From an uncultured Bacteroidota bacterium (GTDB lineage Bacteria > Bacteroidota > Bacteroidia > Flavobacteriales > Flavobacteriaceae), in the NCBI GenBank assembly GCA_902546095.1, contig CACCIQ010000001.1, positions 2,501-66,500 of the forward strand: DNA of 64,000 nucleotides. The letters are read 5' to 3'. The position numbers and the translations under genes are program-made. Position 1 is the stretch's first letter. The number at the start of each line of letters is the position of its first letter. Shown one piece after another: positions 35,148 to 61,141 of the stretch. Below the pieces are notes generated by a model. That model was not told the origin of the DNA. It did no database searches and saw only the letters and a program-made list of their open reading frames with translations.

Positions 35148-35798
35148 ATGAAAAAATTTAAAACATTAATATTATTAATGAGTTCTGCATTTTTCTTTTT
35201 TACAAATCAGAATGTGCAGTCTCAAGATTTTGGTGCTGATGTGGTTAGCTCTTACGTATGGAGAGGTACTCAATTTGGCCAAGGTATGCATATCCAACCA
35301 TGGATGACAGTCGGAAACGGTGGATTCGAAGGTGGTATTTGGGGAAGTTTTCCTACAACTGCTGGAGGTGGTGGTGATGAATTAGACTTGTATGTTGCAT
35401 ATGATTTTGGTCCATTAGCTATTACAATTACAAACTATACATTCCCTGATGGAACAGGAAATTATGGTGATGGTTCAGGTCTATTTGAAGGTGATATGGA
35501 AATATCATTATCAACTGAAGTTGGTGGTGTTTCTCTATTAGGAGGTTACTTCCCTGATTTAGAAGCTCTATACATTGAGGCTGGATTCCCATTAGGACCA
35601 GTTGATTTTGCTATTGGTTATGGAAGTGATGGTAAAGATGCCTTTTATGCTGGTGGTGATAGCGGAATAGTCAACCTATCATTTGGAGGTTCAAAAGACA
35701 TAAAGATTACTGATGATTATTCATTACCTGTTTTTGGATCATTTATATATAACCCTGATGCAGATGCTGCATTTTTGGTTTTTGGAGCTAGTTTTTAA
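35148..35798 (+). CDS. TorF-like outer-membrane beta-barrel protein
   Basis: Signal peptide; ADVVSSYVWRGTQFGQGMHIQPW start, alternating strands, C-terminal Phe. Confidence 0.75.
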   Translation: MKKFKTLILLMSSAFFFFTNQNVQSQDFGADVVSSYVWRGTQFGQGMHIQPWMTVGNGGFEGGIWGSFPTTAGGGGDELDLYVAYDFGPLAITITNYTFPDGTGNYGDGSGLFEGDMEISLSTEVGGVSLLGGYFPDLEALYIEAGFPLGPVDFAIGYGSDGKDAFYAGGDSGIVNLSFGGSKDIKITDDYSLPVFGSFIYNPDADAAFLVFGASF

Positions 35799-35818
35799 CT
35801 TAATTAATATTTAGAATT

Positions 35819-37051
35819 ATGGAATTATTAACAACAAATAATGTATGGATGATGGTCTGTACCTTTTTAGTTTTCTTTATGCACTTAGGCTTTACTTTTC
35901 TAGAGGTTGGTGCAACTAGACAGAAGAATTCAATTAATATTTTATTTAAAAATTTCTTTGTAATCACAGCAGGTCTAGTTATTTACTGTGCTATTGGATT
36001 TAATCTAATGTACCCTAGTGAATGGCTAATCGAAGGTTATTTGGGATCCCCAGTTTTTGGGCTAGATGCTGAAACTGCTGCTGATCTTTCATATAATGAA
36101 GGTTACACTTACTGGACGGATTTTCTATTCCAAGGTATGTTTGCTGCAACTGCTGCAACAATTATTTCTGGTGCAGTTGCTGAAAGAATTAAGATTAGTT
36201 CTTTTATGTTAATAGCAAGTTTATATGTTGCAATCGTTTATCCCATAGTAGGTGCTTGGAAATGGGGTGGTGGCTTCATGGATGCTGCTGGTTTTTATGA
36301 TTTTGCAGGTTCTACTTTAGTGCATGCTGTTGGAGGATGGGGTGCTCTAGTTGTAATTTATTTCCTTGGAGCTAGAAAAGGAAGATTCGGAAAAGATGGA
36401 GCTGTAATTCCAGGATCAAATGTACCATTATCAGCTGCAGGGGTTGTAATACTCTGGTTAGGCTGGTTTGGATTTAATGGTGGCTCTGTTCTTTCAGCAG
36501 ATCCTTCTTTAACTTCGGTCACTTTAGTTAATACTTGTTTAGCAGCTGCTGCAGGTGGATTATCTTGTGCAGGTTTTTATAAATTATTTTATGGAAAGGC
36601 TGATATCATGATGTTTATGAATGGTGTCCTTGGAGGCTTAGTAGGAATTACTGCCGGTGCTGACTTAATGTTACCAGGAAGCTCAATTCTTATTGGAATT
36701 ATCTCAGGTCCTATTGTATTTTTAAGTTCCAGTCTTCTTGAAAATGCAAAACTTGATGACCCAGTAGGAGCAATTCCAGTTCACCTTTTCTGCGGTATTT
36801 GGGGAACATTAGCAGTTGGTATTTTTGGAAGTATGGCTAGTTTTGATCAATTTATGATTCAACTTGCGTGTGTTGGATTAACTGGAATATTCTGCATTGT
36901 TGCAGGAACTATTATTGTGCAACTCGTTAAAGCTGTTAAAGGCTTAAGGGTTACAGAAGAAGCTGAAGAAGTTGGATTAGATATTTCTGAACATGATGGT
37001 AGTTTAGCTTATGCTCAATTCCAAATCACAAGTAAAAAATATCACAAGTAA
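35819..37051 (+). CDS. amt: Ammonium transporter
   Basis: FFMHLGFTFLEVGATRQKNSINILFKN, AGSTLVHAVGGWGALV, WLGWFGFNGGS, VHLFCGIWGTLAVG. Confidence 0.95.
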   Translation: MELLTTNNVWMMVCTFLVFFMHLGFTFLEVGATRQKNSINILFKNFFVITAGLVIYCAIGFNLMYPSEWLIEGYLGSPVFGLDAETAADLSYNEGYTYWTDFLFQGMFAATAATIISGAVAERIKISSFMLIASLYVAIVYPIVGAWKWGGGFMDAAGFYDFAGSTLVHAVGGWGALVVIYFLGARKGRFGKDGAVIPGSNVPLSAAGVVILWLGWFGFNGGSVLSADPSLTSVTLVNTCLAAAAGGLSCAGFYKLFYGKADIMMFMNGVLGGLVGITAGADLMLPGSSILIGIISGPIVFLSSSLLENAKLDDPVGAIPVHLFCGIWGTLAVGIFGSMASFDQFMIQLACVGLTGIFCIVAGTIIVQLVKAVKGLRVTEEAEEVGLDISEHDGSLAYAQFQITSKKYHK

Positions 37052-42625: not shown

Positions 42626-43593
42626 TGTTTAGACTTACTTTTATAGTTTTTCTTATTTCAATCTTGTTTAGCTGTGAAAATAGTAGAGAAATTGATTTTG
42701 CAATTGTCATTCATGGTGGGGCTGGAACTATTCTAAAAAAGAATATGAGTAAAAAAATGGAATCAGCGTATGATCAAAAAATGAGAGAGGCCTTAAACAT
42801 TGGATACAAAATACTTGAAGATGGAGGCTCAAGTGTTGATGCTGTTGAATCAACAATTAAAGTGCTTGAAAACTCAGAATTATTTAATGCCGGTAAAGGC
42901 TCTGTCTTATCAAATGATGAGATTGTTGAAATGGATGCATCTATAATGTTTGGAGGAAATTTAAATGCAGGTGCAATTGCAGGTGTTAAAACCATAAAAA
43001 ATCCAATATCAGCTGCAAGATCTGTTATGGAAAAATCTGAGCATGTATTTCTTTCTGGAAGTGGAGCAGAATTATTTGCAAAAAGTCAAGGTTTAGAAAT
43101 TACCGATAATGAATATTTTATAACTGAAAGAAGATTGAATTCATTACTAAATGCAAAAAAGAGAGATTCGTTAAAGGAAAATAAATTTGGCACTGTTGGC
43201 TGTGTTGCATTAGACAAACTTGGTAATATAACATCAGGTACATCGACAGGTGGAATGACCAATAAAAAATGGAATAGAATTGGGGATGTTCCAATAATTG
43301 GTGCAGGAACCTACGCTAACAATAACACCTGTGGTATTTCATCCACAGGATGGGGAGAATACTTTATTAGAAATGTAGTTGCTTATGATATATCCTCACA
43401 AATTGAATACAAAAATATTTCTATAAATTCAGCGGCACGAAATACTTTGAAAAAAGTGAAAGATTTAGGTGGCAGTGGTGGTGTAATTGGTATTGATAAG
43501 AATGGAAATATTTTAATGGATTTTAATACTGAGGGGATGTACAGAGGATACAGGAAATCAAACGGCGAATCTGTGATAAAAATCTATAAATAA
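42625..43593 (+). CDS. Isoaspartyl peptidase / L-asparaginase (Ntn hydrolase) lipoprotein
   Basis: IVIHGGAGTI, NAGKGSVLSNDEIVEMDASIM, catalytic KFGTVGCVALDKLGNITSGTSTGGMTNKKWNRIGDVPIIGAGTYA; lipobox LFSCEN. Confidence 0.92.
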   Translation: MFRLTFIVFLISILFSCENSREIDFAIVIHGGAGTILKKNMSKKMESAYDQKMREALNIGYKILEDGGSSVDAVESTIKVLENSELFNAGKGSVLSNDEIVEMDASIMFGGNLNAGAIAGVKTIKNPISAARSVMEKSEHVFLSGSGAELFAKSQGLEITDNEYFITERRLNSLLNAKKRDSLKENKFGTVGCVALDKLGNITSGTSTGGMTNKKWNRIGDVPIIGAGTYANNNTCGISSTGWGEYFIRNVVAYDISSQIEYKNISINSAARNTLKKVKDLGGSGGVIGIDKNGNILMDFNTEGMYRGYRKSNGESVIKIYK

Positions 43594-44744
43594 GTCGATA
43601 TTATCCGGGGGATATTTTTTAGGAATGATTTAATAAACATCAACTTAGGAAAAGAATTAATAATTCTTAAATCGTCCCAGTAACTTCCTTCATTATCAAG
43701 AAAACGGAATATTGAACTAAAGCTATTTTTCTTGAACATTGTTTCAAAAAGTACAGATCCTACTGAATTCTTATTAAACAGCACATCAAGAAAAATCAAG
43801 TCATAAAACCAATATCTATTTCTAAATTTAAAATTTTTGAAACTTCTCCCTGAAATAAGAAATGAAATTAATTTATCAGAAAATTTATCGATAAATCTAA
43901 ATGTGTAACCACTTGATGGTTTAGTCCATCCCCCAGCAGTTCCAATATTAATTAAATTGGATGAATTGTACTTATCATATGGATAACATGTCATTGGAAT
44001 AACACCTTTTTCTTTTGAAATTATCTCATAATCTTTAATGTTCAAGGAGGAGATATATTTTTTGATTTCAGACTCATACTCTTTCTCTTCGATTAAATTT
44101 TTTGTAAATAAAGTAAATTCAATAAGTGCCTCATTATTTTTCTTAGGTAGTAAATAAAAAAAACGAGTCTCATTCTTCTGATCTATTGAAAAATCCATAA
44201 TTGTAGCAATGCTAGGATCAAAACAACTTGTATTTGTTTTAATTGTCCATCCTTTAAAATGCTGCAATAATTTGGGAAATTTTTTGTGATTATCATATGG
44301 TGTAAATTTTGGTATACTATTAAAAACTTTATTAGCAGTGTATTGACCGTTTTTAGACCTTACATTTACCGTTTCATTTTCATCTGATATATTTAAAACA
44401 TCATCATAAACTAAACTAATTTTTAATTTTGATTCTACTATTTTTTTAATTTTCTTAAAAAATTTAGAACTACTAATCATATTATACCTTAGTTGTTTCA
44501 GGTCATAATCAATTTCAGTGTCAATATTTTTGAACCTAATGTCAGACCATTTTTTGTCAATAAAATCACTCCAAATTGAATCTTTATTGTCCCAAAAGCA
44601 CCATGTTTTATTTATCTCAACACTGCTATTTTCAATTACTAGAATTGATTTATTTCTAAAAAAATTATAAGATGACATTTTATAAAGAATGATACATGTT
44701 GAAAGACCATATCCACAGAATATATAATCAAATTTATTTTTCAA
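43584..44744 (-). CDS. crtY: Lycopene beta-cyclase
   Basis: NKTWCFWDN, LLQHFKGWTIKT, IMDFSIDQ, FFYLLPKKNNEALIEFTLF, INIGTAGGWTKPSSGYTF typical of CrtY. Confidence 0.87.
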   Translation of the reverse strand: MKNKFDYIFCGYGLSTCIILYKMSSYNFFRNKSILVIENSSVEINKTWCFWDNKDSIWSDFIDKKWSDIRFKNIDTEIDYDLKQLRYNMISSSKFFKKIKKIVESKLKISLVYDDVLNISDENETVNVRSKNGQYTANKVFNSIPKFTPYDNHKKFPKLLQHFKGWTIKTNTSCFDPSIATIMDFSIDQKNETRFFYLLPKKNNEALIEFTLFTKNLIEEKEYESEIKKYISSLNIKDYEIISKEKGVIPMTCYPYDKYNSSNLINIGTAGGWTKPSSGYTFRFIDKFSDKLISFLISGRSFKNFKFRNRYWFYDLIFLDVLFNKNSVGSVLFETMFKKNSFSSIFRFLDNEGSYWDDLRIINSFPKLMFIKSFLKNIPRIISTYL

Positions 44745-44821
44745 TTTAATTTATTTAAACGAATCTAAATATATCATTAATTATTTTAATTTAATGGAAC
44801 GAATTTTGATAATTAAGATTT

Positions 44822-45490
44822 GTGTTTGTTTCCATATCATTTTTTTATTTTAAGTCAAATAAATTTTGGGCTTTTAAACAAATGGTTGAAGCCAGAAAGT
44901 TCCTAAATAAATTAAAAAATATTACATTTTACAAAATGCTTGGAACCGGTGCTGAGGGAGGTTTTATAAAACCCGATTTTGGAGTATACTCCTTACTCTG
45001 TGTGTGGAAAAATAAAAAAAGTGCATTAAAATTTTTAAACGCTAGTGAACATGCCTATGAAATTAGTAGAAAAGCTGAAAAAAGAGTTGATTATTTGATG
45101 ACTCCCATTATGTCAAATGGTCTTTGGGATAAAATAAATCCTTTTCAAATTAATGAAAAAGTCGTTACTAATTCAGAAAATAAAATTGGAGTAATAACAA
45201 GAGGGAAGATAAAACTTTCCAAACAGATTGATTTTTGGGCTAATGTGCCAGCTGCTGCAAAATCAATTCGCAATGCTGATGGCGTTGAATTCTATAAAGG
45301 TATTGGGGAGCTTCCTTTTCTTACCCAAGCTACTTTTAGTGTTTGGAAAGATTTTAGTTCAATTACAGATTTTGCATATAAAAATAAAGCACATTCAGAA
45401 ATAATTAAAAAAACTAAAGAGCGAGGATGGTATAGTGAGGATTTATTTGCAAGATTTAATATAATCAGTCAAAAAACTAAAATATTTTAA
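44822..45490 (+). CDS. CrtA-like protein (spheroidene monooxygenase family)
   Basis: FYKMLGTGAEGGFIKPDFGVYSLLCVWK, GVITRGKI, FWANVPAAAKSI, GIGELPFLTQATFSVWKD typical of CrtA; GTG start. Confidence 0.8.
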   Translation: MFVSISFFYFKSNKFWAFKQMVEARKFLNKLKNITFYKMLGTGAEGGFIKPDFGVYSLLCVWKNKKSALKFLNASEHAYEISRKAEKRVDYLMTPIMSNGLWDKINPFQINEKVVTNSENKIGVITRGKIKLSKQIDFWANVPAAAKSIRNADGVEFYKGIGELPFLTQATFSVWKDFSSITDFAYKNKAHSEIIKKTKERGWYSEDLFARFNIISQKTKIF

Positions 45491-45492
45491 TA

Positions 45493-46962
45493 ATGAAAGC
45501 AAATGTCATTGGATCAGGAATTGGAGGAATAAGCGCAGCAATTAGATTAAGAAATATGGGCTTTAATGTTAATGTGTTTGAAAAAAACAAAAACCCAGGC
45601 GGAAAACTAAATACATTTAAACTAGGTGATTATAGATTTGATGCAGGCCCCTCACTTTTTACCATGCCAAATCTTGTGGATGAATTATTTACAATGTCAG
45701 GTGAAAATCCAAGAAATTTTTTTAAGTACAAAAAAAAAGATATTCATTGTAAATATTATTGGGATGACGGAACTAAATTTACCGCTTTTTCAGACAAACA
45801 AAAATTTTTAAATGAGGTTAAAGAAAAATTTAAAGTAGAAAATAAAGTGTTAACTAACTATTTTTTAAAAGCAAGAAAAAAATATGAATTAACTAAAAAT
45901 ATATTTTTAAATAAATCACTACACAAGCTATCGACTTATACGAATATTAAAACAATCAAAGCATTGTTTAAGTTCAATATTTATCAAATAAATCAGACTT
46001 TGAATCAGGTTAATTCTAAAGAATTAAAAAATGATTATTTAATTCAAATTTTTAACAGATATGCAACTTATAATGGATCATCACCATACAAAACACCAGG
46101 AATGATGACACTAATCCAGCATCTTGAAAATAATTATGGCACATATATCCCTGAAAAAGGGATGTATGATATTACAAACAGTCTTTATGAATTAGCAAAA
46201 AGAATTGGTGTTAATTTTTACTTTAATAAATGTGTCACAGGTTTAAACGTAAAAAATAATATTGTTGACTCAATTGAACTTAATGACGGTAAGATTTTTA
46301 AATCGGATTATATAATTTCAAATGTAGATACCAATTACTTCTACAAAAACATAATTAAAAATCAAACTAAAAATATATTTACAGAACAAGAAAGATCAAG
46401 TTCTGCTGTAATTTATTACTGGGGCATGAATAAAAAATTTGAAAATTTAGATCTTCATAACATATTATTTTCATCCGATTACAAAACTGAATTTGAATAC
46501 ATTTTTAAAAAAAGTAAATTATTTAATGACCCTACTATTTACATAAACATAACATCCAAAGATGTTAAAAATGATGCGCCTAAAAATTGTGAAAATTGGT
46601 TTGTAATGGTTAATGCTCCACACAATAAAAATCAAAACTGGGAAAATGAACTGGTTGAATTAAAAAAAAATATTTTGGAAAAAATTGAGAGAATATTGGA
46701 ATGTGATGTTGAAAAACACATACAAGAGGAGAGAATATATAGCCCTAAAAATCTCGAAAATAATACCAATTCCTATCAAGGATCATTGTACGGTACATCA
46801 AGTAACAATATATTATCATCATTTTTAAGGCATCCAAATTTTTCAAGAAAATTTAAAAATCTATTTTTCTGTGGAGGGAGCGTACACCCAGGTGGAGGTA
46901 TTCCATTATGTCTATTATCATCAAAGATTGCATGTGATTTAATTGAAAATTCTAAATATTAA
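45493..46962 (+). CDS. Phytoene desaturase-family FAD protein, CrtD-like
   Basis: VIGSGIGGISAAIRLRNMGFNVNVFEKNKNPGGKLNTF; FNRYATYNGSSPYKTPG; C-terminal FFCGGSVHPGGGIPLCLLSSKIA. Confidence 0.88.
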   Translation: MKANVIGSGIGGISAAIRLRNMGFNVNVFEKNKNPGGKLNTFKLGDYRFDAGPSLFTMPNLVDELFTMSGENPRNFFKYKKKDIHCKYYWDDGTKFTAFSDKQKFLNEVKEKFKVENKVLTNYFLKARKKYELTKNIFLNKSLHKLSTYTNIKTIKALFKFNIYQINQTLNQVNSKELKNDYLIQIFNRYATYNGSSPYKTPGMMTLIQHLENNYGTYIPEKGMYDITNSLYELAKRIGVNFYFNKCVTGLNVKNNIVDSIELNDGKIFKSDYIISNVDTNYFYKNIIKNQTKNIFTEQERSSSAVIYYWGMNKKFENLDLHNILFSSDYKTEFEYIFKKSKLFNDPTIYINITSKDVKNDAPKNCENWFVMVNAPHNKNQNWENELVELKKNILEKIERILECDVEKHIQEERIYSPKNLENNTNSYQGSLYGTSSNNILSSFLRHPNFSRKFKNLFFCGGSVHPGGGIPLCLLSSKIACDLIENSKY

Positions 46963-47575
46963 AATATCAATTTTTCTTATATGGCTAATTCATATTTCAG
47001 GTGCCCTAGGGCTCTTATATTATGATATCATATTTTTTGCTGCTCTAACTCCAATAAATCTATATCTGACAGCTCTACTCCTAATAATTAACCAAAAAAA
47101 ACCTGGTTTCAGGGAATTATTAGGGATTTTTCTAATATTTTTTGTTGGAATTTTTGTTGAGTTTTTAGGTGTTAATTATGGTTTAATTTTTGGAAATTAT
47201 GAATATGGTCAGAATATGGGGCCAAAATCCTTAGGTGTACCCTTTCTGATTGGTATTAATTGGATAATAATTACTTTAATTTCGGGTGGAATTGCTCATA
47301 ATTTATGGATAAAAAATAAATATTTTTCAATAATATTAGCCTCGATTCTAATGGTTTTTATAGATCTTTTCATTGAACCTGTTGCACCTATTTTAGATTT
47401 TTGGGAATTTAAAGATAATATTGTTCCAGCATCTAATTATATGGGGTGGTTTTTAACTGGCATTATAACACAGACTATTTATTATAATTCATTTAAAAAT
47501 AAAGAGTTCAATTTTTCAATTAATCTTTACTCAGCTATGCTCATATTCTTTTTACTTTTAAATTTATTAGGTTAA
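46943..47575 (+). CDS. Carotenoid biosynthesis protein (CruF/DUF422-like)
   Basis: TM-rich; EFLGVNYGLIFGNYEYGQNMGPKSLGVPFLIGINWIIIT and DLFIEPVAPILDFWEF motifs; overlaps crtD-like 3' end. Confidence 0.83.
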   Translation: MKILNIKISIFLIWLIHISGALGLLYYDIIFFAALTPINLYLTALLLIINQKKPGFRELLGIFLIFFVGIFVEFLGVNYGLIFGNYEYGQNMGPKSLGVPFLIGINWIIITLISGGIAHNLWIKNKYFSIILASILMVFIDLFIEPVAPILDFWEFKDNIVPASNYMGWFLTGIITQTIYYNSFKNKEFNFSINLYSAMLIFFLLLNLLG

Positions 47576-53029: not shown

Positions 53030-54124
53030 TTAGTTTTCTTTAATATTGTTAACCATCACTTTTAACAAACCATCTTTCTTTTTATCATTCATTAATTGCC
53101 AAAACATTATTCCATGCAGTTTGTTGTCTTTAACATATTTTGATTTTAGTTCAATAGATTTTTGATTGTCATATGTAAGAAAAAGCTGATTTTCTTTATC
53201 GTATGCGTATGGGGCTTTTGCAGTTTCGTCCCAAAAAAACTCAAAATCTTTTGTTACTTCATTGAAATTATTTTGATTTACTCCACCTTTAAAATTTGCA
53301 GCTTGATACAATCCATTATTAACATTAGCAACATCTTTGTAAATTCTTCCATAAAACGCTGCACCTAGTACAATTTTGCTTGCTGGAACTCCTTTTGATT
53401 TTAAATATTGTATAGCATAATCTCCCGATCTTTCTTGGTTCTCTGTAGAGTAAAGTGAAGTATGATGTCCGGTTACTTTTGAATAACCACCTATTAAATC
53501 ATAGGTCATTAGATTAACATTATCTATGAGTGGTGTAACTTGATCCCAGTCAACTGATTTATCGATAAAACTTTTAAATCCACCTGCAGCAAAGCTGAGA
53601 ATGTCATCTGGTTTCATATATTCTCTAAGTAGCTTAATTAAATCAGTAAAATTATCTCTGTCATCATCTCTAAAAGCATGACCTGGAGGTCCTGGAATTG
53701 CAGGATATTCCCAATCTAAATCGATTCCATCTGCATTGTATTCTTCAATTATTTTAGCAGTAGATTTTGCAAAATCAATTCTTCCTTCCTTAGTATTAAA
53801 TACATCTGAACAGGTCTTACATCCACCCCATCCACCAAGTGAGATCAAGACTTTTAGGCTTGGATACTTTTTTTTCTGATCAACAATACCTAATAAACTA
53901 ATACTATCAGCTTCGTTATCGATAGCTAATTTATTTCCTTTAAGATGTAAAAAACTATATATAATTTGATCCACACCACTCAGATCAAATTCATTTATGG
54001 TTTCTCCATTACCAGTATAGTAGGCAATGACTTTTGGATTTACTTCATTATTTGAAATGTTATTACAAGAAATAACAACTAAAAAAATGATTATGTATAA
54101 TTTAAAATTCATGCCTGTTTTCAA
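53030..54124 (-). CDS. GH18 family glycoside hydrolase (chitinase-like) lipoprotein
   Basis: VLISLGGWGGCKTC, active site DGIDLDWEYP, NLMTYDLIGGY, LHGIMFWQLMND; lipobox VISCNN. Confidence 0.9.
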   Translation of the reverse strand: MKTGMNFKLYIIIFLVVISCNNISNNEVNPKVIAYYTGNGETINEFDLSGVDQIIYSFLHLKGNKLAIDNEADSISLLGIVDQKKKYPSLKVLISLGGWGGCKTCSDVFNTKEGRIDFAKSTAKIIEEYNADGIDLDWEYPAIPGPPGHAFRDDDRDNFTDLIKLLREYMKPDDILSFAAGGFKSFIDKSVDWDQVTPLIDNVNLMTYDLIGGYSKVTGHHTSLYSTENQERSGDYAIQYLKSKGVPASKIVLGAAFYGRIYKDVANVNNGLYQAANFKGGVNQNNFNEVTKDFEFFWDETAKAPYAYDKENQLFLTYDNQKSIELKSKYVKDNKLHGIMFWQLMNDKKKDGLLKVMVNNIKEN

Positions 54125-56414
54125 TTTTAATTGACTTTTTTAAATGAAATTTAGAATCTGATGATCCTCCGACCATGAATTCAAATTCTCCTTCTTCAAC
54201 ACAATAAACCATGTTAATATCATAAAATGCTAAATTTTCAATAGGGACATTTAAATTGACAGTCTTCGTTTCACCTGCTTCTATGAAAACTCTTTCATAT
54301 GAAACTAATTCTTTTACAGGTCTAGTTACTGAACTAAAACTATCATTAAAGTAAAGTTGAACTACTTCATCACCTGCAATATTACTATCATTTTTAATTT
54401 GGACACTTACGTTAATCAAATCCTCATTCTCATTTTTTGATAGCTCAAAATTTGAATAAATAAATTTTGAATAACTCAGCCCATGACCAAAAGGATATAA
54501 AGGTGTTACTTTTTCAAAAGCGTATTTATGAAAATATTGAGAAGGTTTATGATTATATATCATTTGTAACTGACCAACACTCCTAGGAAATGTCAAAGGA
54601 AGTTTACCCCCAGGATTAACATCACCAAAAACAACCTCTGCTACTGCCTGTCCAGCCATACTACCTAATTCCCATGACTCAATTACACCACTAATATTAT
54701 TGTCAATCCAAGGCTCTGCGATTGGTTTACCATTCACATATATCACTATTACGTTTTTATTGATTTTCTTTAATTTTTGTACCAACTCGAGTTGCTTTCC
54801 TGCCAAATTTAAATTTGCTCTTCCCATATTTTCACCAGCAGTTCTTTTTGATTTTAATATTCTTTGTGAATTGTCTCCAACTACGACAATGATTTGATCA
54901 TAATTTTTAGCCTTATTTACAGTTTTAATTATATCGCTTTGTGAAATAGATCTAATATCACTATTCGAATCATAAAAATCAATCTGAAAACCTTTAGAGT
55001 CTCCAAGTGTTTTAATTCCCTCATAAATGGTTATTACATTTTCTACAGGCTGAGCAAAAACCCAATCACCTAAAACTGAATGATTATTTGCATTGGGACC
55101 AGTAACTAATATTTTTTTTCCTCTTTTTTGATTTATTGGAAGAATTCCATCATTTTTTAATAAAACTATAGATTTTCTCGCGGCATCAAGCGCAGTGCTT
55201 TTGTGTTCTTCAGTAAAGACGTTTTCATCTAAATCATCTGGACTTACAAACGGATTCTCAAAAAGGCCTAATTTAAATTTAGCATACAAAATTTTTCTAG
55301 CAGAATAATTAATTCTTTCAATATCTAGTTTTCCTTCCTCCACTAATTCAATTACATTTTCTAAAAAGTTTGGACCATGCATATTCATATCCATTCCAGC
55401 GTCAACTGCATAATAAATTGCTTCCTTGAAGTCCTTAGCAATTTTGTGTAGGACATTTATTCGATTAATATCAAGCCAATCGCTAACATAAAATCCTTCA
55501 AAATCAAATTCATTTCTCATAACATCTGTAAGGAGCTCCTTATGCATGTGAGCTGGGATGCCATTTATTTCATTATGCGCAGCCATAACGGAATAGACAC
55601 CAGCATCAACAGCTCTTTTAAAAGGCTTTAAATAAATTTCTCTTAGAGACCTTTCAGAAATATCCATTGGGGAAACATTCAATCCATTGACTGGTTCAGA
55701 ACCAGCTACAAAATGTTTAGCACATGCTATTACATTATCAAAACCACTGAAATCATCCGATTGCAAGCCTTTTATCATTTGGACACCAAAATTTCCAACT
55801 AGATACGGATCTTCACCAAACGTTTCACCAACTCTACCCCATCTTGGATCTCTTAATACATCAACATTGGGTGTAAATGCCCAATGAGATCCATGAGCTC
55901 TAACTTCTTTTGCAGTTTCTTGTCCAATTTTAAAAACAATATTTTCATTAAATGTAGATGCCAAAGATATTGGTGAGGGATAAACTGTTGTTCCAGCTAC
56001 CATCCCATTTCCATGTATTGCATCAATACCTATTAGTAGAGGAATTTTTAGTCTAGATTTTTGCGCTAATTCTTGAAGCCTGTTAGCTTCCCTCATTGTT
56101 AAAACATGTAAAAATGAACCTATTTTACCATCTGCAACCATTTGAGCAATATCCTTTTTTAATAAACCCCTGTAAGATGCTCTACTATCGCTATTTAAAA
56201 TTTCCTCTGCAGTCATATTTCTATCTGCATCAGTGATATAATTTAAACCAACAAATTGTGTCATTTGAGCAACTTTTTCTTCAAGAGTCATTCTTGACAT
56301 CAAATCATTTAATCTAACTTCGATAGAATATTCTTGATTTAAATACTTAACTTCTTTGTCCATGGTACATGAACTTAGAGTTAAAACAATAATTAATAAA
56401 ATAATTTTTTTCAT
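54102..56414 (-). CDS. bglX: GH3 beta-glucosidase lipoprotein (BglX-like)
   Basis: MTLEEKVAQMTQ, FTPNVDVLRDPRWGRVGETFGEDP, EGFYVSDWLDI, PLYPFGHGLSYSKF; C-terminal FnIII-like domain; lipobox SSCTM. Confidence 0.93.
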   Translation of the reverse strand: MKKIILLIIVLTLSSCTMDKEVKYLNQEYSIEVRLNDLMSRMTLEEKVAQMTQFVGLNYITDADRNMTAEEILNSDSRASYRGLLKKDIAQMVADGKIGSFLHVLTMREANRLQELAQKSRLKIPLLIGIDAIHGNGMVAGTTVYPSPISLASTFNENIVFKIGQETAKEVRAHGSHWAFTPNVDVLRDPRWGRVGETFGEDPYLVGNFGVQMIKGLQSDDFSGFDNVIACAKHFVAGSEPVNGLNVSPMDISERSLREIYLKPFKRAVDAGVYSVMAAHNEINGIPAHMHKELLTDVMRNEFDFEGFYVSDWLDINRINVLHKIAKDFKEAIYYAVDAGMDMNMHGPNFLENVIELVEEGKLDIERINYSARKILYAKFKLGLFENPFVSPDDLDENVFTEEHKSTALDAARKSIVLLKNDGILPINQKRGKKILVTGPNANNHSVLGDWVFAQPVENVITIYEGIKTLGDSKGFQIDFYDSNSDIRSISQSDIIKTVNKAKNYDQIIVVVGDNSQRILKSKRTAGENMGRANLNLAGKQLELVQKLKKINKNVIVIYVNGKPIAEPWIDNNISGVIESWELGSMAGQAVAEVVFGDVNPGGKLPLTFPRSVGQLQMIYNHKPSQYFHKYAFEKVTPLYPFGHGLSYSKFIYSNFELSKNENEDLINVSVQIKNDSNIAGDEVVQLYFNDSFSSVTRPVKELVSYERVFIEAGETKTVNLNVPIENLAFYDINMVYCVEEGEFEFMVGGSSDSKFHLKKSIKIENRHEF

Positions 56415-56571: not shown

Positions 56572-56603
56572 AAAAAAAAAGGGAGTTAAAACAACTCCCT
56601 TTT
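56572..56603 (-). terminator. Rho-independent terminator of the lipoprotein operon
   Basis: Minus strand AAAAGGGAGTT-GTTTT-AACTCCCTTTT followed by T tract. Confidence 0.9.
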
Positions 56604-56625
56604 AATCGATTTAAAATTATTATTT

Positions 56626-57153
56626 TTATTGTTGAGGTTCTGCTCTAGTAAATACCCAAAAAGCACCAATCTTTCCTTCTTCTATGTATGCATCAATAAT
56701 ATCATATGATGTGACTTCTTCTCCATTAACAGTCTTTTTTACTTGTGCACCAGAAATAACCCACTCTCCAGGCTGATTTTCAACCTTCATTGTGTATGAG
56801 AACCATGTATTCCAAGTCGGATTTTCAGTTTCAAACCAACCTTTCAGAAATTCAATATGAGTATCAGACCCATCGATTACAGATCCATCAGGACCAATAA
56901 TTTTAAAACTTCCCATCTGTTGGGTTGAATCAATATTCATTTCGGCAATTGCATCGAGATCTCTGTTATTATGAGCTTCAATATATTTATCCCATAAATC
57001 TAAATTTTCAGGATTAGCATCATCAGCAGGAATATCTCCATCAGGTGTTCTTAGAAACCCTGGGGCTCTCTCTGCTTCCTTTTCAGCGGGAGCAGGTGAT
57101 TCACATGAAAATGTGAAGATTGTTAAAAATGTGATTATAAATATTTTTTTCAT
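56626..57153 (-). CDS. NTF2/SnoaL-like lipoprotein (array member 6)
   Basis: Lipobox TFSCES; DLWDKYIEAHNNRDLDAIAEMNIDSTQQMGSFKIIGPDG; divergent relative of the neighbours. Confidence 0.72.
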   Translation of the reverse strand: MKKIFIITFLTIFTFSCESPAPAEKEAERAPGFLRTPDGDIPADDANPENLDLWDKYIEAHNNRDLDAIAEMNIDSTQQMGSFKIIGPDGSVIDGSDTHIEFLKGWFETENPTWNTWFSYTMKVENQPGEWVISGAQVKKTVNGEEVTSYDIIDAYIEEGKIGAFWVFTRAEPQQ

Positions 57154-57164
57154 ATTAATTGTTT

Positions 57165-57671
57165 TTAATCTAATTCAGATGACCATTTGTTAACACGAGT
57201 TATTTTTCCATCTGAATTAAAAATAAATCTTTCAAAAACTCTATCTCTCTCAACCGAACCATCCTTAGCATACCTAACTTCGGTGAATGGCACTGATATA
57301 ATAGTATAGCTATCCTCAAGTCCTGAGGATACTGAAGTTACATTGTAAGGATTCCTGGATATTGAATCATATGGTTCCTGCATAGAGGATAAAAAATCAT
57401 TAAATGGATTAACTAATGATATTAATTCTCCTCCTTTATCAGGAAAAAAGCTTACAGTGTCAGCCATTTTTTCCATAATAAAATCAAAGTCTCCATCAGC
57501 ATATGCTTGTAAAACATCAAGTGTAGTTTTGGCATAATCCATAGAACCTGCATACAATTTTGTTTGGCTTCCTCTAAGCCCCTCTCCAACCTGTGAATTA
57601 ACTTCAATAGTTTTGGTTTCACAACTTAAAAAAAGTGGCAAAACTAATAACAACAATAATAATTTTTTCAT
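57165..57671 (-). CDS. NTF2-like lipoprotein (array member 5)
   Basis: Lipobox FLSCETKT; shared AYADGDFD, EPYDSI, ERFIFNSDGKITRVNKW. Confidence 0.75.
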   Translation of the reverse strand: MKKLLLLLLVLPLFLSCETKTIEVNSQVGEGLRGSQTKLYAGSMDYAKTTLDVLQAYADGDFDFIMEKMADTVSFFPDKGGELISLVNPFNDFLSSMQEPYDSISRNPYNVTSVSSGLEDSYTIISVPFTEVRYAKDGSVERDRVFERFIFNSDGKITRVNKWSSELD

Positions 57672-57698
57672 AATAAAATTTTTATAAAATTAATAAAT

Positions 57699-58205
57699 TT
57701 AATCAACAATTCCTTTCCATTGATTAACTCTAAAAAATTTACCATCTCTAATAAATATTCTATCTACGAGCCTCAGTTTTTCGACTTCACCAGTCTTGTA
57801 ATATCTATTTTCTCTAAAAGAAACAGTTACTGTTTCATAATCAGCGCCAACAGCTTTTATTGGAATAGCATTCCAAATGAACCTTTGGATTGAATCATAA
57901 GGAGATTGAATTTCTTTTAAGAAAGTATAATTTGGGTCACGAACAACAGGAATAGGTTTACCAATACTTGGCTCAAAAAACATCACAGTATCAGCGGACA
58001 TTTCGTTCATTAGCTCAAAATTACCATCAGCATAGGCTAAAACAAGGTCAACTGCAATTTTTGTACTTTCATCAGAACCAAATTCAAAGGTTCCTCCTTT
58101 GTTTTGTCCATTGTAAACCATACCAGCTGTTTTTTCAACCTCAACTGTTTTAGTTTCACAGCCTAAAAAAACTGCTGTAGTAATAATTAATAGTATTTTT
58201 TTCAT
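57699..58205 (-). CDS. NTF2-like lipoprotein (array member 4)
   Basis: Real start likely ATG at 58205 (MKKILLIITTAVFLGCETKT); track ORF 57699..58346 overextends into the upstream gene. Shared AYADGNFE, SPYDSI, RIFIRDGKFFRVNQW. Confidence 0.78.
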   Translation of the reverse strand: MKKILLIITTAVFLGCETKTVEVEKTAGMVYNGQNKGGTFEFGSDESTKIAVDLVLAYADGNFELMNEMSADTVMFFEPSIGKPIPVVRDPNYTFLKEIQSPYDSIQRFIWNAIPIKAVGADYETVTVSFRENRYYKTGEVEKLRLVDRIFIRDGKFFRVNQWKGIVD

Positions 58206-58215
58206 AATTAAAATT

Positions 58216-58716
58216 TTAGTTAGTGTTCCATTTGGCAGACCAAGCCATAACACGAAAAATCTTTCCATTGCGTATAAAAAATCTTTCGAATAAACGGTCA
58301 TCCTCAACTGTTCCGTCTTTTTTAAATTTTGTTTCTCTGGATGCAACAGAAACTACATTTGCTGATTGACCTTCATATTGATGAGGAATATATCCTTGAA
58401 CCACTTGACTTATAGAATCATATGCTGACATATATTCAACAATAAATTTTTTGTCTGCAACAATAGGTTTTTTTTCAGAAGCAACAAACCAAGTAATTGT
58501 ATCTTCAAGTACTTCAAACATTCCATCAGGATCCATATTATTCCATGATTCAAGTAATTTTTTAACAATATCTACATTGTCATCAGATGTCAAATAAAAT
58601 TTGCTTCCAGTATTTGGACCTAAAGCAATTTCACCGGCTTTAAGAGGTGTCTCAACAACTTTTGTCTCACAGCTTATTAAAGCTGCTATGACAAAAAATA
58701 ATAATGTTTTTTTCAT
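58216..58716 (-). CDS. NTF2-like lipoprotein (array member 3)
   Basis: Lipobox LISCETKV; SAYDSI, ERFFIRNGKIFRVMAW. Confidence 0.75.
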   Translation of the reverse strand: MKKTLLFFVIAALISCETKVVETPLKAGEIALGPNTGSKFYLTSDDNVDIVKKLLESWNNMDPDGMFEVLEDTITWFVASEKKPIVADKKFIVEYMSAYDSISQVVQGYIPHQYEGQSANVVSVASRETKFKKDGTVEDDRLFERFFIRNGKIFRVMAWSAKWNTN

Positions 58717-58731
58717 ATAAAAAGTTTTAAA

Positions 58732-59238
58732 TTAATTAGGTCTCATCCACTGGACTACCCTACTTATTTTATCTTCATTATTAAACCAAATTTTTTCATA
58801 GAAGAGTATGGATTCTGTACTACCATCTTTATAAAATCTTTTTTCAGATATTCCAGCGTGAACTACATTATAATTAGTTTCCTCTAGCTTTAATGGGATA
58901 ATGAAATTATAATTTCTGTTAATAGAATCCCATTCTGATTGCCTTTGAACAATAAAATCAGTATTGCTCATATCTACATCGAAAACACCCGCAACATCGC
59001 CGGGGTGGAATTTTGCCATATCAGTAGTCATATCAACCATTGTTTGAGGATCAAAATCAGCATATGCCTCCATAAAAGTCATTGCTAAATCTGTATACTT
59101 ATCATCACCGAGCATATATTTTTTTCCATTCCAGTTTCCATCCATAAGCCACTCCCCAGCTGTTTTTTCAATTTCAACTGTTTTTGTCTCACAGCTTAAT
59201 AAAGTTGAAATAGTAAATAATAGTAATATTTTTTTCAT
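58732..59238 (-). CDS. NTF2-like lipoprotein (array member 2)
   Basis: Lipobox LLSCETKTVEIEKTAGE; EAYADFD, SEWDSI, KIWFNNEDKISRVVQW. Confidence 0.75.
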   Translation of the reverse strand: MKKILLLFTISTLLSCETKTVEIEKTAGEWLMDGNWNGKKYMLGDDKYTDLAMTFMEAYADFDPQTMVDMTTDMAKFHPGDVAGVFDVDMSNTDFIVQRQSEWDSINRNYNFIIPLKLEETNYNVVHAGISEKRFYKDGSTESILFYEKIWFNNEDKISRVVQWMRPN

Positions 59239-59255
59239 TGCATTAAATTTATTTA

Positions 59256-59744
59256 TTAATCATCAATCTCCTGAGTTACAAAAGCAATATTAACTATTTT
59301 TCCTGTTTCATGACTAATCCAATATCTTTCAAAATTTCTTGATCTTGAAACTTCTGATTCGTCATAAACTGATTGAGAAAAGAGAGCATCTACATATGAT
59401 ACATTGTCATTGACTTTTACAGCCATAACAGACGTAAGAGATCTTGTTATTGAATCATAATTTGATCTAAAACCTTCCCATCTTTCTATGCTTGGAGCAA
59501 CCTTGAAAACATTTCCAGGCTCACGTCTTGTAACTGAATCTGAAAAATTTTCAATAATCTCTTCAAAATTACCATCAGCATATCCCAATACAACATCTTT
59601 TATCATTGATGCGTATTCACTTGAACCTTGTTGAAGTTCATAGTTATTATCACCGCCTGTAAACATTCCTCCATATTTTAATTCAGGGGTTGTTTCGCAG
59701 CTGATAAAAAACGTTGTAAAAATAATTAAGTATAAATTTTTCAT
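59256..59744 (-). CDS. NTF2-like lipoprotein (array member 1)
   Basis: Start at ATG 59744 (MKNLYLIIFTTFFISCETT); GYADGNFEEIIENFSDSV, SNYDSI, FERYWISHETGKIV. Confidence 0.73.
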   Translation of the reverse strand: MKNLYLIIFTTFFISCETTPELKYGGMFTGGDNNYELQQGSSEYASMIKDVVLGYADGNFEEIIENFSDSVTRREPGNVFKVAPSIERWEGFRSNYDSITRSLTSVMAVKVNDNVSYVDALFSQSVYDESEVSRSRNFERYWISHETGKIVNIAFVTQEIDD

Positions 59745-59754
59745 AATTTTGATA

Positions 59755-60519
59755 TTAATAAGTGTATTCTTCAAGTAAGTTTAAATTCCATTCATCAACA
59801 ACTGAGCTAACTGGCGATTTCTGAGTTTTATCATAGTTGGATTGAAAATCTGCATCGGAAAATCTTTTTTCCATTCTATCTTCCCAGTTTTTGTGATAAT
59901 CGAACCTTGATTTGTCTAGCAATACAAGCATATAGTCTGAATCAGTAGCAAACACAGGCTTCATTAATGCATATAAATAATCCACTCCTAACTTTTTATC
60001 AGCATCAATCCAAAATTTTTGATTTGCTAAAAATGCTTGTTCACCGGCATCGGTTAAATCATAAAAAACAACTCTTCTATACTTGTATTGCTTTTTTTCG
60101 TCTGTCGACATCGCAAAGTATGGAGCCATATTACTATATTCAGGAAGCAATTCAAATAATCTTGCACCTTTGAAATCTGTTGCAGCTTGCATTGCCATAA
60201 ACTTCTCTTGAATACCTTCAACAACACTCAACTTCTGAAAGATTTGAGCTCCCAGCTCCTCTGAAGCATTGTCTTCATCTACCCACTGTTGTAGGCTTTC
60301 ATAAGTTCTTACAAAAAGATGTGTGTTAGATAATTCTTTTTGAAATGTGACCATATTTAAATCTTCACCAACAATCTCTTTTGTTGTAGACATCCACAAG
60401 TCAAGCATCTCCATGGTATCACTTTGATTTTCAGATTCAAGCTCACCAATAAAGAAGTATTGAGAAAAGGAAATTGTAGTAGAGAAAAAAAGTATCAATG
60501 TGTATGTAAATTTTTTCAT
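59755..60519 (-). CDS. Exported protein of unknown function, 254 aa
   Basis: Signal peptide ending near TTISFSQ; complete ORF 10 nt upstream of the lipoprotein array; no family recognised. Confidence 0.7.
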   Translation of the reverse strand: MKKFTYTLILFFSTTISFSQYFFIGELESENQSDTMEMLDLWMSTTKEIVGEDLNMVTFQKELSNTHLFVRTYESLQQWVDEDNASEELGAQIFQKLSVVEGIQEKFMAMQAATDFKGARLFELLPEYSNMAPYFAMSTDEKKQYKYRRVVFYDLTDAGEQAFLANQKFWIDADKKLGVDYLYALMKPVFATDSDYMLVLLDKSRFDYHKNWEDRMEKRFSDADFQSNYDKTQKSPVSSVVDEWNLNLLEEYTY

Positions 60520-60667: not shown

Positions 60668-61141
60668 TTATTCATATCCTACAGCTAGGAATTCTGCTAC
60701 ACAAACAGGTTTGTTTTGACCTTTCTGTTCAAATGTAATAGACATTTTATATTTGACGGACTCAGCACTGATTTCTGCATCAACAAGTGAAATTAACGCT
60801 CTAATATACCCTCCAGAAAAAGTTGGGCTCATAAATCTAACCCTATCTAAACCATAGTTTACACCCATTTTTACACTTTTAATATTGAAGGTTTCATAAA
60901 TAAATTTTATAGATAATGATAATATAAAAAAACCGTGAGCTACAGTTGTTTTATAGGGTGAATATTTCTTTGATTTTTCAATATCAATATGAATCCACTG
61001 TTGGTCATGTGTTAATTTTGCAAACGCATTAATATCATCTTGAGTAATTTGGAACCAATCAGTAATTCCAATTTCTTTTCCAATATATTTTTCTAAATCT
61101 TTGATATTATTAAGCTCCGTTTTTAATTTTTTATTATCCAT
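60668..61141 (-). CDS. MaoC-like dehydratase (hotdog fold)
   Basis: DWFQITQDDINAFAKLTHDQQWIHID, TTVAHGFFILSLS, NYGLDRVRFMSPTF. Confidence 0.9.
   Translation of the reverse strand: MDNKKLKTELNNIKDLEKYIGKEIGITDWFQITQDDINAFAKLTHDQQWIHIDIEKSKKYSPYKTTVAHGFFILSLSIKFIYETFNIKSVKMGVNYGLDRVRFMSPTFSGGYIRALISLVDAEISAESVKYKMSITFEQKGQNKPVCVAEFLAVGYE

Follow-up and report, generated by a model that had tools for sequence, protein, structure and literature searches.

A 64 kb stretch of contig CACCIQ010000001.1, from an uncultured member of the Flavobacteriaceae (here called the window), carries an array of seven same-strand genes that encode an exported protein (EXP) and six small lipoproteins (LP1 to LP6). 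The array is a real, conserved and fast-reassorting set of NTF2/SnoaL-like lipoproteins. It lies on the minus strand and spans positions 60519 down to 56626. EXP (59755..60519, 254 amino acids) is the first gene, followed by LP1 (59256..59744, 162 amino acids), LP2 (58732..59238, 168 amino acids), LP3 (58216..58716, 166 amino acids), LP4 (57699..58205, 168 amino acids counted from an internal ATG), LP5 (57165..57671, 168 amino acids) and LP6 (56626..57153, 175 amino acids). The intergenic gaps, in order from EXP to LP6, are 10, 17, 15, 10, 27 and 11 nucleotides. An intrinsic terminator with a 12-bp stem and a T run follows on the same strand (56577..56603; fold z-score −2.85). A cysteine stands behind a hydrophobic N-terminus in all six LPs, in keeping with the lipobox that a sequence-only reading of this DNA had assigned to each. 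That reading also gave the open reading frames, coordinates, 10–27 nucleotide spacing and strong terminator as they are found here, and its operon-like layout is borne out by the short same-strand gaps and the terminator. A single operon of EXP and LP1 to LP6 is the best explanation. A search for the Bacteroidota promoter pattern found no enrichment and no instance upstream of EXP.

The array consists of five true paralogues (LP1 to LP5) and one remote homologue (LP6). Pairwise identities among LP1 to LP5 are 26–41%, and BLASTP E-values as low as 6e-35 are far beyond chance. LP1 and LP3 have no direct BLASTP match to each other; LP1 is a paralogue of LP2, LP4 and LP5. LP6 was tied to the family by BLASTP at 0.014 and by a profile comparison of mature sequences (94% probability, E 8e-8, 124 columns). 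The earlier description of six related lipoproteins therefore holds for LP1 to LP5 as mutual paralogues and only remotely for LP6, which lacks two of the three landmarks (YDSI and ERxFxRxGKIxRVxxW). In a 53-sequence tree, each of LP1 to LP5 clusters with orthologues from other species. For example, the LP1 clade includes sequences from MED-G65 and genomes G016 and G017, and the LP2 clade extends to other genera. In some relatives, by tree and identities, LP5 gives way to an alternative group, LP5b. No group occurs twice in the ∼18 arrays read gene by gene. These data strongly support the reading of LP1 to LP5 as old, separate orthologous groups. Since each is old and shared across species and no group is duplicated, the array is not the product of recent serial duplication, as had been proposed. 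Further LP-like lipoproteins are encoded outside the array in the same genome, a 1.07 Mb assembly that is 60% complete (L089:2994-4027 on contig C3 and L090:2701-3198 on C5); they include a tandem pair of 171 amino acids each, with an extra cysteine after the lipobox.

A cone fold for these lipoproteins had been guessed from their landmarks and is upheld by modelling. The AlphaFold2 (AF2) model of LP4, built from 50 sequences, has a predicted local distance difference test score (pLDDT) of 89.2. Its Foldseek matches in the PDB are almost all NTF2-like and include limonene-1,2-epoxide hydrolase, the CaMKII hub and the polyketide cyclases IdmH and AclR, with E-values of about 1e-5. The template modelling (TM) score against limonene-1,2-epoxide hydrolase is 0.73–0.74, normalised by target length. 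LP1 to LP6 all score under the SnoaL_2 (PF12680) gathering cut-off of 27 bits, whereas several array neighbours in relatives exceed it (35.2 and 30.4 bits). At E ≤ 0.01, SnoaL_2 matches 14 of 50 LP family members, and a profile search of PDB sequences gave a weak lead to NTF2 and ketosteroid isomerase entries. An NTF2/SnoaL-like cone is thus the strongly supported prediction for LP4, which would place it in that superfamily; LP1 would be NTF2-like through its homology to LP4. Matches to HAMP_N3, Csm2, SigX5 and PHROG entries were too weak to be credible.

The gene content and alleles of the array change far faster than its surroundings. The window is syntenic with genomes G017 and G020 at a median identity of about 97%, whereas array genes are missing there, replaced by another group, or 70–93% identical. 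Flank genes (median 97%) and array genes (0–93%) differ in rank for both genomes (Mann-Whitney p 7e-4 for G017 and 9e-5 for G020), in a test of an island that was chosen after it had been noticed. The upstream MaoC-like hydratase (60668..61141, minus strand; Pfam MaoC, 4.6e-19) lies outside the island and is 91–92% identical in close relatives. The downstream GH3 lipoprotein (54102..56414, minus strand; Pfam GH3) also lies outside it and is syntenic in relatives. LP6, at the island's edge, is the most conserved member, with 92–97% identity in the three nearest relatives.

Synonymous divergence (dS) between the window and G017 is 0.06 for secA, compared with 0.90 for LP1, 0.88 for LP4, 1.37 for LP3 and 1.69 for EXP, values above 1 being near saturation. 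Imported alleles are the simplest reading, because faster protein evolution does not account for such dS. LP3 has an allele in common with distant lineages: it is 89–91% identical to its counterparts in G011 and G016, whose SecA proteins are only 76% identical to that of the window, and its dS to them (0.79–0.86) is below that of secA (1.42–1.43). For both LP3 and LP4, grouping by species was rejected in approximately unbiased (AU) tests (p of about 0.001 or below), with groups named after the identities were known. The G016 array lies on a 5 kb single-cell contig, where contamination is possible; contamination is unlikely in G011, because its contig has its own lineage's flanks for a second array site. 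The GH3 neighbour has also been replaced in G020 (dS 1.37), so exchange tracts can run past the array. Together, these comparisons strongly support a sharply bounded island, with genes missing and alleles replaced, that would turn over rapidly by recombination with other species. By the same comparisons, the diversity of the array arises through gene gain, gene loss and allele replacement between species.

Two other parts of the window vary between these genomes. Positions 44882–47575 are missing from the G017 stretch, to which 43584–44678 are only 56% identical; G020 keeps the block at 94–97%. By eye, this accessory block (43584–47575) holds candidate carotenoid-type genes. The gene at 35148 is 77% identical to G017 and 98% to G020. 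The next gene, at 35819, is a candidate ammonium transporter and shows the reverse, with 98% identity to G017 and 81% to G020. This mosaic divergence at 35148–37051 suggests recombination.

Named relatives are marine single-cell genomes and metagenome-assembled genomes (MAGs), such as AG-461-P01, AG-349-C04, AG-916-G20, MED-G65 and MED-G14. Synteny of the array in relatives, which the earlier reading had proposed to check, is borne out. The arrays occupy two main chromosomal places. One, used in the window, has the order acyl-CoA synthetase-MaoC-[array]-LP6-GH3-GH18; the other is used in different species. The number of LPs per array ranges from one (G013) to five (the window). The LP profile, run against 400 Flavobacteriaceae genomes, matches 28 of them from 20 genera at E ≤ 1e-10, often in a tandem protein of ∼300 amino acids. 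In many other genera, an exported protein of ∼300 amino acids contains two fused LP/SnoaL-like stretches (L142-L146, L154, L155, L157 and L158). In loci of three other Flavobacteriaceae genera (L146:5179-8279, L147:4771-6102 and L138:3437-6725), an HxlR-type regulator and SnoaL proteins adjoin homologues of EXP, of LPs or of the R253 and R257 proteins described below. Elsewhere in bacteria, HxlR-type regulators often sense reactive small molecules.

Many relatives' arrays also contain R263, a lipoprotein of 260–263 amino acids with SnoaL_2 and ABM domains that is absent from the window. All 11 members of this family match both domain models at E ≤ 0.01, and at least one exceeds both cut-offs. 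Between the R263 genes of L106 (3111-3899) and L107 (4102-4890), the SnoaL half is 99% identical and the ABM half 45%. The ABM half of L107 is in turn 73–74% identical to those of L099 (3631-4422) and L100 (1868-2659), and two types of ABM half exist. By these identities, the second half of R263 has been swapped between close relatives. A kinship between R263 and the LPs, proposed from an iterated search, was set aside: it suffers from a signal-peptide weakness, and support from mature sequences is indirect, through S175.

EXP is an optional first gene and not an obligate head gene. The exported 254-amino-acid protein said to lead the array does so here, at a gap of 10 nucleotides. It is not constant, being present in 3 of the 22 other genomes of the genus, all of them incomplete, and missing from G020 although the locus is intact there. 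Its relatives span nine genera, counting the window's own. Searches of Pfam, NCBIfam and PDB profiles gave no match above cut-off, and an AF2 model made with three orthologues was unusable (pLDDT 39). A weak match to Imm75 (E 0.13) was regarded as chance. Other arrays open with different exported proteins of 240–260 amino acids (R239, R253 and R257) that have no detectable kinship to EXP with signal peptides removed. Full-length profile comparisons had linked EXP, R239, R253, R257 and the LPs; this link vanished once signal peptides were removed and is an artefact.

Within the LPs, constraint and variation fall on different positions. The ratio of nonsynonymous to synonymous divergence (dN/dS) is 0.06–0.22 across all pairs tested, with no gene-wide sign of positive selection. 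Purifying selection on each LP group is strongly supported by these estimates. The earlier suggestion of strong divergence under selection for a diversified set is supported as to the diversified set, and finds no diversifying signal in these ratios. D72, D104-S105-I106, E132, E/D148 and K156 are near-invariant across the LP groups, and G28, K137 and G139 are conserved as well. Position 78 differs by group: LP1 and LP4 have Glu there, LP2 and LP5 have Pro, and LP3 has Val or Ala. This pattern suggests a conserved polar site with a variable lining. In a hand alignment to ketosteroid isomerase, E/D148 corresponds to the second catalytic acid and position 78 to the first. The conserved E132, R149 and E/D148 are, from sequence only, candidate counterparts of the Asp-Arg-Asp triad in the cavity of limonene-1,2-epoxide hydrolase.

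The mature N-termini bear on where these proteins reside. The stretch from +2 to +6 has the sequence E-T-K-T-V/I, and only 9 of 52 proteins have at least two acidic residues in it. Surface lipoprotein export in other Bacteroidota follows the consensus QKDDE, SDDDD or SDDFE (PMC5080379). No such acidic signal was found at +2 to +6, by a consensus that may not be this lineage's own. A location on the outer membrane's periplasmic side is therefore more likely, and the LPs are probably outer-membrane-anchored and periplasm-facing.

We tentatively favour a reading of the LP array as an outer-membrane-anchored, probably periplasmic repertoire of cones that bind or convert small ligands and are shuffled by recombination. 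Each cone would bind or slowly convert a different small, probably hydrophobic, environmental molecule in its cavity, and species would trade array members to suit the compounds they meet. Small molecules are favoured because of the fold, the ABM fusion and the HxlR neighbours. Several points weigh against this reading. LP1 to LP5 fall under every Pfam cut-off when the window proteins are compared with Pfam. No complete catalytic triad of a known type was identified in the LPs; of the ketosteroid isomerase Tyr and two acids, in an alignment made partly by hand, the Tyr is not conserved, the first acid is present in some groups and the second in all. An enzymatic role is putative, we infer the ligand or substrate role, and the pocket positions are predicted from the residues alone. 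For many relatives, the genome is a partial one, from a single cell or as a MAG. Finally, layout and turnover suit a polyimmunity reading equally well.

In that reading, the main rival but one that we consider doubtful, each periplasmic lipoprotein would neutralise a different toxin delivered by competitors, with no toxin gene of its own nearby. Published polyimmunity loci have the same layout and differ strongly even among close strains; some immunity families have the NTF2 fold, and one immunity family, Imm65, bears a lipobox (PMC3482391). Turnover and domain swapping are compatible with it. Yet no Imm-NTF2 model matches any of 50 members at E ≤ 0.01 or any window member at E ≤ 1, the 23 genomes of the genus, all incomplete, contain no Rhs-type toxin core, and the SnoaL-ABM fusions and HxlR neighbours favour small molecules over toxins. 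Surface variation, whereby lipoproteins exposed on the outside would vary to escape phages or grazers, would account for a hypervariable locus with alleles exchanged between species. It is unlikely given the low dN/dS with no diversifying selection and the lack of a published-type export signal, even with the few sequences that have two acidic residues. It is more improbable still that the cones form a mixed, CaMKII hub-like ring that presents other partners. CaMKII hub domains are the best LP4 matches by Foldseek E-value and the members are co-encoded at short spacing; however, NTF2-like matches of differing function score similarly, and one to five LPs per array leave no fixed stoichiometry. 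Recent local duplication with neutral divergence and no special selection on content would explain adjacent paralogues, but it is hardly credible, being already contradicted by the tree (groups common to several species and one to other genera), by the lack of any group occurring twice and by purifying selection in every pair tested.

A broader possibility, held with less confidence than the favoured reading, is a combinatorial recognition locus in ocean bacteria with streamlined genomes. Here, ordered slots of ancient cone lipoproteins, together with a SnoaL-ABM fusion that has a swappable second half, would be re-assorted between species, adjusting the periplasmic repertoire to small molecules or toxins. 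SnoaL/NTF2-like lipoproteins recur in these flavobacterial genomes. Marine cells with small genomes keep a whole set of them, exchanging members between species far faster than the surrounding region changes. This cassette-like swapping suggests that the repertoire follows changes in chemicals or attackers. The locus is a natural experiment, in that swapped alleles, compared for their ligands or for resistance to toxins, would show what the protein class is for.

The array has partial counterparts among known systems. It resembles the SnoaL_2/NTF2-like superfamily (PF12680 and relatives) in the cone fold of the AF2 model, its PDB matches and relatives' members above cut-off; it differs in that the window LPs, lipoproteins encoded in tandem, fall under the cut-offs and are without the ketosteroid isomerase tyrosine. 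DUF3828, DUF3887 and DUF4878 are non-catalytic ligand-binding NTF2-like domains with a proposed ligand role (PMC3924330). They share the fold in bacterial proteins but are other families, whose models the window proteins do not match. Polyimmunity loci (PMC3482391) are alike in their tandem, divergent same-strand paralogues, short gaps and content that varies between close strains, and the arrays likewise contain no toxin gene, as judged from gene lists alone. Here, by contrast, Imm family models give no match, no Rhs core was found in the genus, and the partners are SnoaL and ABM proteins. The lpl cluster of Staphylococcus aureus likewise groups lipoprotein paralogues in tandem within a genomic island; it belongs to an unrelated organism and is likened by layout, not by protein family. 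A host-directed role is reported for lpl (PMC4470592), and the likeness does not extend that role to these plankton bacteria. The literature searched held no paper on this array or on such arrays. The sequence-only reading went too far in holding that no described system has this layout, as polyimmunity loci and lpl are similar; what stands is that polyimmunity loci, and presumably lpl, are built from other protein families.

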